Assembly: GCF_004684205.1 (NCBI RefSeq)
Contig: NZ_SRIO01000013.1
Span: 1-64,000 of the forward strand
Reading direction: 5' to 3'
DNA: 64,000 nucleotides
Source: Candidatus Macondimonas diazotrophica
GTDB lineage: Bacteria > Pseudomonadota > Gammaproteobacteria > UBA5335
Made by a program: the position numbers and the translations under genes. The notes beneath the pieces were generated by a model that saw nothing but the letters and a program-made list of their open reading frames with translations, searched no databases and was not told where the DNA came from. Of the stretch, positions 21,950-26,430 are shown piece by piece. The stretch's first letter is position 1. Each line of letters opens with the position of its first letter.

Positions 21950-23761
21950 ATGTCGATTGTTCGCCTGCCTGATGCATTGATCAACCAGATCGCCGCCGGC
22001 GAGGTGGTGGCGCGCCCGGCTTCGGTCGTCAAGGAACTCGTCGAGAACAGCCTGGACGCCGGTGCGCGACGGATCCGCATCGAGGTGGAGCGTGGCGGAA
22101 TCGGGTTGATCCGCGTTACCGATGACGGCGCGGGAATGGCGCCCGAGGAACTGCCCTTGGCACTGGAGCGCCATGCCACCAGCAAGATCCGACACCTTGC
22201 CGACCTCGAACGCATCGCCACGCTTGGCTTTCGCGGCGAAGCTCTGCCGAGCATTGCGGCCGTCTCGCGTTTCAGTCTGACGTCCCGCATGGCCCACAGT
22301 CCGCATGCCTGGCGGGTGGAGTGCCACGATGGCGGGCTGAGCGAACCGATTCCGGCGCCTCATCCGCCGGGAACCCGGGTCAGCGTTCGTGATCTGTTTC
22401 ACAACACGCCGGCGCGACGCAAATTTCTGCGCAGCGAGCGGACCGAATTCGACCACCTGGCGCGCACCGTGTTGCAGCTGGCGCTGGCCGAGCCCGAAGC
22501 CGGACTGACGTTGATTCACAACGGGCGTACCCTTTGGCAGCTTCCACCGGCCACCGAGCCGGTGAGTGTGGAAAGCCGGCTTGCGATCCTGCTGGGTGAG
22601 GATTTCTTGCGTCATGCCCTGCATGTGCGTCATGAGCGTGCCGCCATCGCCCTCTCGGGCTGGATCGCCGCACCGGCGTTCTCGCGCGCCCAGGGCGATG
22701 TTCAGCATCTGTTTGTCAATGGCCGCTGGATCCGGGACAAGGGGCTAGCCCATGCGGTTCGCCATGCCTATCGCGATGTGCTTCATCATCAGCGGCATCC
22801 GGCCTATGTCCTGCATCTGACACTGGATCCGGCGTCGGTGGACGTGAATGTGCATCCGGCTAAGCATGAGATCCGCCTGCGGGATGCGCGCCAGACCCAC
22901 GATTTCCTGGCCCGCAGTCTGCAAGATGCGCTGGCTGCGGTGCGCCCGGGCGCTGAGGCAGGCCATGTCGTAACCGAGATTCCCATGCCAACCCCAGCGC
23001 TGGCGCCGAGGCAGGATCCCTTGCCCCTGAAGGTGGCGGAGTCGGCGCCTCGTTACGCATCGGCCATACCGAAGGGCGGCATGGCAGCGGCTGGCTGGGA
23101 TGTGGCGTCGCCCCTCGCGGCAGCGCCAGCACCCGCCAGCGACGGTTCGATGGCCGACCGGGCCGCCCGGCCCGATGAGCAACCGCTCGGGTTTGCCTTG
23201 GGGCAGCTCCATGGGATCTACCTGCTGGCACAGAATGCCGCCGGGCTGGTGGTGGTGGATATCCACGCGGCGCATGAACGCATTCTTTACGAGCGGCTCA
23301 AACGCGCCGCTGCTGATGGCGGGCCGGCATCCCAGTCCTTGCTCGTTCCGGTCGAAATCACCCTGAATATTACTGAAGCGGATTGGGTGGAGCGCTGGGC
23401 GCCAGAATGGACAGCCTTCGGGCTACTGGTCGATCGCACCGGCCCGGCGAACGTCACGCTGCGGGCCTTGCCCGCGGGCCTGCCGATGCAGGATCCGGTC
23501 GGGCTGTTCCGGGATCTGCTGGCTGATCTCATGCATCAGGGCCGAACCGATCGTGTAGAAGCGCAGCACCATGCACTCATGGCCTCCCTGGCGTGCCATG
23601 GTGCGGTGCGCGCAGGACGGGCGTTGACCGTGCCGGAGCTGGATGCACTGCTTCGCGACATGGAACGAACCGAGCGCTCGGGTCAATGCAATCATGGGCG
23701 TCCGACCTGGGTGCAGCTGGATCGCGCCGCGCTCGATCGTCTGTTTCTGCGTGGACGTTGA
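21950..23761 (+). CDS. mutL: DNA mismatch repair protein MutL with endonuclease motif
   Basis: A 603-residue MutL from ATG 21950. The GHKL ATPase has ELVENSLDAGA, DDGAGM and LGFRGEALPSI. In the C-terminal domain DIHAAHERILYE (from residue 437) fits the DQHAX2EX4E metal-binding endonuclease motif with Ile for Gln; ACHGAVRAGR and GQCNHGRPT complete the nuclease set. MutL links MutS to strand nicking. The motif predicts methyl-independent repair without MutH, unlike E. coli. miaA overlaps the 3' end. Confidence 0.96.
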   Translation: MSIVRLPDALINQIAAGEVVARPASVVKELVENSLDAGARRIRIEVERGGIGLIRVTDDGAGMAPEELPLALERHATSKIRHLADLERIATLGFRGEALPSIAAVSRFSLTSRMAHSPHAWRVECHDGGLSEPIPAPHPPGTRVSVRDLFHNTPARRKFLRSERTEFDHLARTVLQLALAEPEAGLTLIHNGRTLWQLPPATEPVSVESRLAILLGEDFLRHALHVRHERAAIALSGWIAAPAFSRAQGDVQHLFVNGRWIRDKGLAHAVRHAYRDVLHHQRHPAYVLHLTLDPASVDVNVHPAKHEIRLRDARQTHDFLARSLQDALAAVRPGAEAGHVVTEIPMPTPALAPRQDPLPLKVAESAPRYASAIPKGGMAAAGWDVASPLAAAPAPASDGSMADRAARPDEQPLGFALGQLHGIYLLAQNAAGLVVVDIHAAHERILYERLKRAAADGGPASQSLLVPVEITLNITEADWVERWAPEWTAFGLLVDRTGPANVTLRALPAGLPMQDPVGLFRDLLADLMHQGRTDRVEAQHHALMASLACHGAVRAGRALTVPELDALLRDMERTERSGQCNHGRPTWVQLDRAALDRLFLRGR

Positions 23762-24710
23762 GTTGGGGTCAAGCGCCGGCCGGTATGATGCCTTGGCGTT
23801 GCTTGGGCCAACCGCGAGTGGAAAGACCGATCTTGCACTGGCCTTGGCGGAGCAGGGTCCGGTCGATATCGTCAACATGGATTCGGCGCAGGTCTATCGC
23901 GGCATGGATATCGGTACGGCCAAGCCCGAGCTTGCTGTGCGGCAACGTATCCCGCATCACCTCTTTGACGTTGTGGATCCGGCTGAAGCCTATTCAGCGG
24001 GCCGTTTCGTTGAAGAGGCGCAGGCGGTCATTCGGGCCATCCGGCGAGCCGGTCGCATTCCGCTCTTGGTCGGCGGCACGTGGCTCTATTACCGGGCGCT
24101 GCGCGACGGCTTGGCGCCCTTGCCTCCTGCAGTGCCCGGAGTGCGGGATAAACTCGCTGAGCGCGCAGCGCATCTTGGATGGCCATCGCTGCATGCCGAG
24201 CTTGTGCGCATCGATCCGGCAGCAGGCCAGCGGATTCACCCTCATGATGCCCAGCGCATCCAGCGGGCCTTGGAGGTCTGGGAAGTGACCGGTATTCCGC
24301 TGAGCGTGCATTGGACGCGCGCGCGTCACCAGGGGCTCGCCCTGCGCACGCTGGTGCTGATACCGGATCATCGCGATTGGCTGCATCGGCGCATTGCCCA
24401 GCGATTGGAGGCGATGTTCGCTGCCGGATTCGTCGAGGAGGTGGCTGGCCTGCGCGCACGATCCGATCTGCATCCCGATCTTCCGGCCTTGCGCGCAGTC
24501 GGCTATCGGCAGGTCTGGACCTGCCTGGACGGACGATTGCCTCGCGAGCGGTTGTTTCAGGCTGTTCTGGAGGCGACGCGGCAGTTTGCCAAGCGGCAGA
24601 TCACCGCGATGCGTCCGCTGACGGCCGTGGATATGCTGGATCCCGCTGATGAGACAGCCAGAACCAGGGCGGTAGCGGATTTTCAGCGGCGTTTTGAATC
24701 ACTTGGATAA
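23751..24710 (+). CDS. miaA: tRNA dimethylallyltransferase MiaA
   Basis: About 319 residues from GTG 23751, which overlaps mutL by 11 bases; TTG 23763 is an alternative. Longer readings lie wholly inside mutL. The P-loop LLGPTASGKTDLALAL and the substrate loop NMDSAQVYRGMDIGTAKP are diagnostic. MiaA adds a dimethylallyl group to A37 of tRNAs reading UNN codons. The order mutL-miaA-hfq-hflX is conserved in gammaproteobacteria and suggests a common transcript. Confidence 0.95.
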   Translation: MDVELGSSAGRYDALALLGPTASGKTDLALALAEQGPVDIVNMDSAQVYRGMDIGTAKPELAVRQRIPHHLFDVVDPAEAYSAGRFVEEAQAVIRAIRRAGRIPLLVGGTWLYYRALRDGLAPLPPAVPGVRDKLAERAAHLGWPSLHAELVRIDPAAGQRIHPHDAQRIQRALEVWEVTGIPLSVHWTRARHQGLALRTLVLIPDHRDWLHRRIAQRLEAMFAAGFVEEVAGLRARSDLHPDLPALRAVGYRQVWTCLDGRLPRERLFQAVLEATRQFAKRQITAMRPLTAVDMLDPADETARTRAVADFQRRFESLG

Positions 24711-24712
24711 AC

Positions 24713-24738
24713 GCATGTAATGTCAAACATGCTATGAT
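24713..24738 (+). promoter_or_regulatory. Extended -10 promoter with overlapping inverted repeat, upstream of hfq
   Basis: TGCTATGAT at 24730-24738 is an extended -10 element (TGN plus TATGAT). No good -35 lies 17 bases upstream. A perfect inverted repeat, GCATGT (24713-24718) and ACATGC (24727-24732) with an 8-base spacer, abuts and partly overlaps it and could be an operator. Confidence 0.5.
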
Positions 24739-24831
24739 TTTCAGGCGCTCTGGACGGGAGCGGTAGGGCTGGGTCCCATAATCATTATTTTTAATCTACG
24801 CGGCGCCGCCCGGCCCGAGGCGGGCGACCAT

Positions 24832-24840
24832 AATAACAAT
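24832..24840 (+). promoter_or_regulatory. Candidate Hfq-binding (AAY)3 site in the hfq leader
   Basis: The leader reads AAT-AAC-AAT at 24832-24840, three AAY triplets as bound by the distal face of Hfq, 14 bases before the hfq start and next to the GGAG ribosome site. A GC-rich hairpin (CGCCCG 24807-24812, CGGGCG 24821-24826) sits just upstream. E. coli Hfq represses its own translation in the leader; the same use here is inference. Confidence 0.45.
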
Positions 24841-24854
24841 GTTGGAGTGATATC

Positions 24855-25112
24855 ATGGCGAAAGGACAGTCTTTGCAGGAGCCTTTCCTCAATGCGTTAC
24901 GCAAAGAGCGTATCCCCGTCTCGATTTACCTGGTCAACGGGATCAAGTTGCAGGGGCACATCGACTCGTTCGATCAATTCGTGGTTCTGCTGAAAAATAC
25001 GGTGAGCCAGATGGTCTATAAGCACGCCATTTCGACGATCGTTCCTTCGCGCAATGTCAAGTTGAGTGAGCCGGATGGTGCAGATGCCGGCGCCAGTGAT
25101 GGGAATTTTTGA
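24855..25112 (+). CDS. hfq: RNA chaperone Hfq
   Basis: An 85-residue Hfq. The Sm1 motif is in [20 protein letters not shown] with [17 protein letters not shown], and the Sm2 motif is [11 protein letters not shown] (KH of the proximal uridine pocket). The acidic tail is short. Hfq is a hexameric ring that pairs small RNAs with mRNAs. The gene has its own candidate promoter and a leader of about 115 bases with an AAY-rich site, while hflX follows 31 bases downstream. Confidence 0.97.
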
Positions 25113-25143
25113 TTCTGACTGAGTCTTCCTGAGCGGGGCGCCG

Positions 25144-26430
25144 ATGTTCGAACGCCCCGTTATCGATCCGCGGTGTGTGCTGGTCAGCCTCGATATCGGC
25201 ATACGAGATCCTGCTGTGCACCTTGAGTTCGAGGACCTCGCGTGTTCCGCCGGGGCCCAGATCGTCGCGCGTGTCGGCGGCCAGCGGGTCACGCCCGAAC
25301 CGAAGTACTTCGTCGGGACCGGCAAGGCCGAGGAAGTTCGGGCCAAGGTTCAGGAAACCGGTGCGGGTCTGGTTTTGGTCAACCATCCCCTGTCCCCCAG
25401 TCAGGAGCGCAATCTGGAGGCACTGATCCAGTGCCGGGTCCTGGATCGAACCGGCTTGATTCTGGATATCTTCGCCCAGCGTGCTCGTTCCTTTGAAGGC
25501 AAGTTGCAAGTCGAACTCGCGCAGTTGCGCCACCTGGCGACCCGGCTGGTGCGCGGATGGTCGCATCTGGAGCGCCAGAAGGGCGGGATCGGCTTACGGG
25601 GGCCGGGAGAAACCCAGCTCGAAAGTGATCGCCGTCTGTTGCGTGCCCGGGTGGCCCAGCTGGAGCGCCGCCTATTGCGCGTGGGCCGGCAGCGCAGCCA
25701 AGGCCGAGCACTGCGCCAACGCAGCGCTGTTCCCACGGTGGCGCTGGTCGGGTATACCAATGCGGGAAAATCGACGCTGTTCAATGCGATGACCGGCGCG
25801 CAAGGCTATGCGGCAGACCAGCTCTTTGCCACGCTCGATCCGACTGCGCGCCAGTTGGATCTGGGTACGCTGCGGGTGGTGGTGGTCGACACCGTCGGGT
25901 TCATTCGGGATCTGCCGCATGAGCTGGTGGCTGCATTTCGGGCTACGCTGGAAGAAACCCGTCAGGCCGACCTTCTGCTGCAGGTGATCGATGCGTCGGA
26001 TGACGAAGCGGATTCGCAGCAGATTGCAGTGAACGAGGTACTGGACCAGATCGGCGCGGGAGAAATTCCCAGATTGTGTGTCTTCAACAAGATCGACTTG
26101 GCGGGTTGGCCGAATGCGATGCGGGAAGATGCCGCAGGCCGGATCGTGCAGGTGGATGTATCCGCCCATACCAGCGCGGGGCTGGATGGGTTGCGGACCG
26201 CAATTCGCCGGCACTTCCAGGGCGTGAGTCACCGCCACTGGCTTCGGCTGGATCATGCCGAAGGCGGAACGCGGGCGCGTCTGTATGCGGCGGGCGCCGT
26301 ATGTGATGAGCGCGTCGATGAATCGGGATGGCTGCTGGAAGTGGATGCCCCTCCTGCTCGTCTGGCGGAGCTGGTGCAAAAGCCCGTGGACGACATGGGC
26401 CTGGTTGCCCCTGCGGCGGGTCATCCCTAG
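25144..26430 (+). CDS. hflX: GTPase HflX
   Basis: A 428-residue GTPase. The N-terminal HflX domain contains NHPLSPSQERNLE and RGPGETQLESDRRLL; the G domain has G1 GYTNAGKST, G3 DTVGFIRDLPHELV and G4 NKID. HflX splits stalled ribosomes under heat stress in E. coli. It sits in the conserved hfq-hflX-hflK-hflC order. The C-terminal extension after about residue 365 matches family length. Confidence 0.96.
   Translation: MFERPVIDPRCVLVSLDIGIRDPAVHLEFEDLACSAGAQIVARVGGQRVTPEPKYFVGTGKAEEVRAKVQETGAGLVLVNHPLSPSQERNLEALIQCRVLDRTGLILDIFAQRARSFEGKLQVELAQLRHLATRLVRGWSHLERQKGGIGLRGPGETQLESDRRLLRARVAQLERRLLRVGRQRSQGRALRQRSAVPTVALVGYTNAGKSTLFNAMTGAQGYAADQLFATLDPTARQLDLGTLRVVVVDTVGFIRDLPHELVAAFRATLEETRQADLLLQVIDASDDEADSQQIAVNEVLDQIGAGEIPRLCVFNKIDLAGWPNAMREDAAGRIVQVDVSAHTSAGLDGLRTAIRRHFQGVSHRHWLRLDHAEGGTRARLYAAGAVCDERVDESGWLLEVDAPPARLAELVQKPVDDMGLVAPAAGHP

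Follow-up and report, generated by a model that had tools for sequence, protein, structure and literature searches.

Self-control of hfq translation has been described for Escherichia coli, in which two sites of the 5' UTR, A and B, take part (Morita & Aiba 2019, PMC6348989; Vecerek et al. 2005, as cited there). According to the passages of PMC6348989 used here, Hfq represses the translation of its own mRNA mainly via its distal face, which binds site B (−20 to +4) with its (ARN)3 motif. Autoregulation is carried by this motif and by residue Y25, as the Y25D exchange has raised Hfq more than 2.5-fold with an intact leader and 1.6-fold with the ARN motif mutated, and deletion of the U stretch has had a marginal effect only (same passages of PMC6348989). 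Direct repression by Hfq is further cited, in parts of PMC6348989 and PMC9890229, for the mRNAs of IS10 transposase, cirA, mutS and P. aeruginosa amiE, where Hfq likewise sits near the ribosome site, via ARN repeats where these parts state it; these are, however, other targets, and in Pseudomonas the Crc protein joins.

The hfq locus of Candidatus Macondimonas diazotrophica has been analysed within a stretch of 64,000 nucleotides, referred to as the window. Like E. coli hfq, it has an (ARN)3 repeat next to the ribosome site, a U tract farther upstream and the same distal-face stretch in the encoded protein. Unlike in E. coli, the repeat (−23 to −15) is placed slightly farther upstream, the U5 tract lies at −67 to −63 instead of −55 to −50, and the bases separating the two allow a G+C-rich hairpin to be drawn.

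Gene order and elements of the leader

The window carries miaA (23643-24710), hfq and hflX (25144-26430) in this order, as assigned by NCBIfam matches, and the flanking ORFs are taken, from their sequence, for mutL, hflK and hflC. The Hfq match to NF001602 is at equivalog level. The best PDB match of the protein, chain 3qhs_A, which we take to be E. coli Hfq, aligns without gaps over residues 1-68, and a distal-face stretch of 13 residues including Y25 is identical in the two; the residues other than Y25 that line the distal face presumably lie within this matching stretch. The miaA-hfq gap of 144 bases holds, from 5' to 3', a −10 box, a stem-loop, U5, a GC-rich stem, AAT-AAC-AAT and GGAG (Table 1).

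Table 1. Positions of hfq and of the elements of its leader in the window
Feature	Position	Strand	Remark
Extended −10 element TGCTATGAT	24730-24738	+	candidate hfq promoter, start inferred near 24744
5' stem-loop CGCUCU-GGACG-GGAGCG	24746-24762	+	at presumed transcript start; predicted −9.7 kcal/mol, z −0.80
U5 tract	24788-24792	+	−67 to −63; may correspond to site A of E. coli
GC-rich hairpin	24807-24826	+	5' of the ARN repeat; predicted, not above shuffles
(ARN)3 repeat AAU-AAC-AAU	24832-24840	+	−23 to −15; proposed Hfq distal-face operator
Shine-Dalgarno core GGAG of hfq	24844-24847	+	from sequence
hfq	24855-25112	+	85 aa RNA chaperone Hfq; NCBIfam NF001602, 141.2 bits (cut-off 95)

The TGCTAT of the −10 element is present in five of six family members, L011 being the one without it; relative to the ATG it is found at −125 in L001, L003 and L004, at −122 in L002 and at −110 in L005. 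A consensus scan of 24400-25200 has returned no sigma-70 promoter. An inverted repeat of terminator-like form at 24713-24732 (GCATGT-8-ACATGC; one found, 0.6 expected) has been discarded, since L003 and L004 do not preserve the 5' arm and the 3' arm overlaps the −10 element. The stem-loop downstream of it persists as a hairpin in L003 (z −2.14), where the sequence differs, and could protect the 5' end of the transcript. Its loop (24752-24756) contains a GGA, as does the Shine-Dalgarno sequence, and binding of CsrA to both would make this protein the main translational regulator, which is very improbable: CsrA represses E. coli hfq and a csrA gene has been found in this genome, but L003 and L004 do not have this GGA in the loop, for which reason a CsrA site in the stem-loop has been rejected, and the AAN run would be left unexplained.

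Conservation and enrichment of the repeat

As claimed in the earlier note, an exact AAT-AAC-AAT (AATAACAAT) stands beside the ribosome site, three bases 5' of GGAG and ahead of the ATG at 24855. The 9-mer alone is not specific to hfq, since (AAY)3 occurs four more times in the window (AACAACAAC), giving five occurrences on both strands versus 1.0 expected, a count reached in one of 100 shuffles. Together with its context, AAY3-N2-9-GGAG-N4-9-ATG, the repeat has hfq as its sole match in the assembly, which spans 2.8 Mb on 94 contigs and is 96% complete, with one forward and no reverse match, for a pattern that covers GGAG-holding Shine-Dalgarno sequences only; the reversed-pattern control has given no match in the genome. 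Among the four genomes of the genus analysed here, L001, L003 and L004 read AAT-AAC-AAT and L002 reads AAG-AAC-AAT. The AAY motif named in the earlier note has therefore been replaced by ARN, because L002 breaks the former and keeps the latter. At the level of the order, at least three AAN triplets are present in seven of eight loci, the exception being L011 of the same family. Such triplets could also arise by chance in a patch rich in adenine 5' of the Shine-Dalgarno sequence, as seen in the repeated occurrence of (AAY)3 in the window and in the approximately 21 of 193 leaders expected to hold (AAN)3, but this explanation is hardly credible given three ARN triplets in all four analysed genomes of the genus, the AAN run in seven of eight loci of the order and the uniqueness in the genome of the repeat in its GGAG-ATG context.

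In a comparison of related leaders in 36 disjoint pairs, the A1/A2 adenines of the run have changed in 28 of 250 cells and adenines elsewhere in the leader in 101 of 397 (p 7e-6), and the N positions in 33 of 125 (p 3e-4 versus A1/A2). The idea that wobble at the third base proves reading in triplets has been abandoned: N positions holding A were changed in 10 of 46 cells versus 27 of 372 for A1/A2 in a first, overlapping set, which was suggestive, and this has not been repeated in the disjoint pairs, where two of 26 were changed, as rarely as A1/A2. On this sequence comparison, conservation is claimed for the adenines of the run as a whole and not for the triplet register itself.

For the wider comparison, hfq loci have been collected from relatives, where 46 of 56 genomes gave a match and 30 loci were used, from genomes of named species (the best 80 of 554), and also from a phylum draw (242 of 299 genomes matched) and a class draw (125 of 140 matched), out of which 80 short regions, about one per genus, and 120 regions of ~2.5 kb, partly with the same genes, have been chosen. 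L008 and L050 have been left out of the 110 loci L001-L110 for want of a readable start or leader, and misfit of the start pattern has removed eight of the 80 short loci (L161, L165, L166, L167, L169, L177, L179 and L183) and 17 of the 120 later ones. Eight of these 17 are genes that have also been read as short loci, and seven of the eight bear the run, so that their loss biases the count against the operator reading. Near-copies have been removed by identity thresholds (108 to 94, 171 to 139 and 211 to 194), and the final set comprises 193 leaders of at least 141 nt.

In-register runs of at least three AAN triplets have been found between −42 and −10 in 79 of the 193 hfq leaders versus a mean of 21.4 (maximum 35) in 100 dinucleotide shuffles of the same segments, whereas the next three segments of 33 bases in the 5' direction contain 5, 6 and 4 runs versus ~3 expected in each. 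The first set had given 43 of 94 versus 8.7 (maximum 15, 200 shuffles), and the median position of the run in hfq leaders is −23 to −13. No such run occurs in 179 leaders of control genes from the same loci (ORFs of at least 150 aa with ATG and Shine-Dalgarno sequence) or in 31 gene leaders of the window. Control leaders have a G+C of 0.56 versus 0.40 for hfq, and G+C-matched pools have also given zero. With the laxer rule of at least three ARN triplets, 47 of 94 hfq leaders, nine of 179 control genes and one of 31 window genes are counted. To see whether leaders with strong translation are all alike in this respect, groES and rpsB (24 and 29 of 30 loci with readable leaders) have been compared with hfq in a shared pool of 56 relatives, where the AAN run is present in one of 24 groES, none of 29 rpsB and 14 of 27 hfq leaders, at a leader G+C of 0.41 for groES, the same as for hfq, and of 0.57 for rpsB. 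Many of the rpsB leaders (L192-L221) carry GGAGG, a few bases and AACCC 5' of the Shine-Dalgarno sequence, which we take to be probably a known rpsB leader element.

These comparisons bear on whether the A-rich stretch is a translation enhancer only, which keeps the ribosome site open or binds S1, without Hfq. The stretch is A-rich and mostly unpaired by prediction (mean 0.67 for the repeat, 0.41 for the leader and 0.20 for the Shine-Dalgarno sequence), and the ARN mutation has itself lowered Hfq expression in E. coli according to passages of PMC6348989, so that an enhancer role may be mixed in, which counts against a pure operator. The shuffles preserve A-richness, however, and the run is enriched above them, and it is nearly absent from groES leaders of the same G+C, from rpsB and from neighbouring genes; an enhancer without Hfq is thus unlikely. 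On the other side, the run is missing from 114 of the 193 hfq leaders, including that of L011 in the same family and those of all 20 named loci of Pseudomonas, Halomonas and Acinetobacter type, which counts against an operator and implies that the run is not a necessary part of the hfq gene.

Leader folding and proposed mode of repression

The GC hairpin named in the earlier note has not stood up as a special element: its predicted energy varies with the stretch folded, from −14.0 to −15.9 kcal/mol, and the hairpin region has given z-scores of +0.37 and +0.94 versus dinucleotide shuffles. The whole leader (24738-24880; z +1.02) folds no better than shuffles, and the GC stem is foldable in L003 and L004 and, at that place, not in L002. 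It has been rejected as a specific or general element, and the 40 bases that precede the run, averaged over 60 hfq leaders, have a mean z of −0.52, compared with −0.38 for a sample of 100 control leaders and −0.53 for the 79 hfq leaders that lack the run. The U run is kept in L003 and L004 and absent from L002, and U5 is weakly enriched among hfq leaders, with 15 of 60 run-bearing ones versus 9.5 in shuffles and 22 of 79 without run versus 14.7.

In 12 hfq leaders assigned by eye to Enterobacterales, a hairpin of 5 bp has been placed 3' of a U-rich stretch and 5' of the A-rich run, with all five pairs in ten leaders, four in L126 and a misfit in L118. One pair varies as A-U, G-U and G-C and another as C-G and U-G, which are few independent changes. 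L100, L126-L128, L132, L139 and L150 are examples from this set. The order of U tract, hairpin, ARN and Shine-Dalgarno sequence is common to the window and these leaders and speaks against the simple one-site design that had been proposed, for which support is lacking as U5 lies upstream in the window like site A in E. coli.

Autogenous repression, with the distal face of Hfq on −23 to −15 and the ribosome sterically blocked, is on the E. coli analogy the likely function of the site. It is the best explanation because the runs are enriched and localised, their adenines have been conserved, and the distal-face stretch of E. coli, Y25 included, is present in the protein; the Shine-Dalgarno sequence is mostly paired in silico, which counts against an operator. 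When free Hfq hexamer exceeds the competing RNA ligands, the distal face would bind AAU-AAC-AAU of its own mRNA, and Hfq placed three bases 5' of GGAG would block 30S binding. Synthesis of Hfq would then halt until other ARN-containing RNAs draw the protein off, and the upstream U5 tract may have an auxiliary role, as judged from E. coli. Binding, ribosome exclusion and homeostasis are steps that we infer from E. coli, and the site is probably functional in the way known there.

An ARN site could also recruit Hfq mainly as matchmaker for sRNA pairing at the ribosome site, as ARN sites in mRNA leaders generally serve sRNA regulation, and the proximal-face exchange K56A has moderately raised Hfq in E. 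coli, suggesting some sRNA input (passages of PMC6348989). The distal-face effect is, however, stated there to be larger than the proximal one (PMC6348989), and Rfam at gathering thresholds has returned one tRNA and no sRNA family in the window, though an sRNA may lie elsewhere or be of a new kind; we consider such a main role quite improbable.

Distribution of the run and Hfq residue 25

The named loci have been grouped by hand and left unthinned, with near-copies among the leaders of Pseudomonas (four) and Aeromonas (three). Of the named loci, 14 of 14 from Enterobacterales, Aeromonas and Alteromonadales (9/9) and from Xanthomonadales (5/5, counting L044 and L105, which are MAGs of Lysobacterales) bear the run, versus none of 20 from Pseudomonas, Halomonas, Marinobacter, Acinetobacter, Marinomonas and similar. 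The sampled Pseudomonas leaders thus differ from the window leader, and two Marinobacter leaders have an ARN run of three. The contrast is weaker elsewhere, as eight further leaders taken for Enterobacterales divide into four with a run of at least three and four with two triplets. A tree of 93 loci requires 21 trait changes versus ~31 when labels are shuffled, a value as low as 21 being reached in 0 of 500 shuffles, and contains a clade of 13 rows uniformly without run, comprising Pseudomonas, Halomonas, Marinobacter, Oceanobacter and kin (support 89, not starred); this clade holds 13 loci of the type of the 20, with Acinetobacter, L056 and L098 placed elsewhere. On 187 rows, 47 changes have been counted, by which the trait turns over often, and the tree fits loss or gain alike.

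Beyond the class, ten leaders have been fetched, and the nine readable ones include five with an ARN run of at least three and three with an AAN run of at least three. L188, from another class, has eight in-register ARN triplets, seven of them AAN, the longest in its leader set. In Sinorhizobium meliloti, which belongs to another class as well, hfq reportedly controls its own expression, as Sobrero and Valverde are said to have found in 2011.

Of 194 loci, 135 encode Y and 57 encode F at residue 25 of Hfq, which is unread in the other two. The first set has shown the run in 36 of 61 loci with Y versus five of 31 with F (p 1e-4), with only four independent pairs on starred branches, and the non-redundant rows (192 of 194 readable at residue 25) in 63 of 135 versus 14 of 57 (p 0.006). 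Co-variation of operator and residue has nevertheless been rejected: on a tree built without Hfq, ten independent pairs have given on average 1.8 in the same and 2.7 in the other direction, so that the Y/F link looks like shared lineage and not co-evolution.

A possible reading, which we put forward tentatively, is that Gammaproteobacteria acquired the ARN operator early, that it turns over on the tree and that it has been lost altogether in the lineage of Pseudomonas, Halomonas, Marinobacter and their kin, where homeostasis would be reached by another route, perhaps tied to Hfq-Crc repression of A-rich targets. For Acinetobacter baumannii, the part of PMC11617691 considered here describes negative autoregulation by Hfq binding to its own mRNA, using an Hfq-LacZ fusion in E. 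coli. Should this fusion carry the Acinetobacter leader, the result in that part of PMC11617691 would speak against the lineage reading, as the two Acinetobacter leaders L093 and L096 have a run of one. No comparative survey of ARN runs in hfq leaders has been found among the matches listed from the open-licence literature.

The site is ordinary in kind, and its pattern across lineages is what merits further attention. The E. coli mechanism would be extended to this gammaproteobacterial lineage, and a run of ARN triplets in register upstream of the Shine-Dalgarno sequence of hfq would serve as a simple sequence rule for guessing where Hfq limits itself by this route. By this rule, Hfq of Pseudomonas and its kin would not be self-limiting in this way, and the evolution of Hfq homeostasis would become testable.
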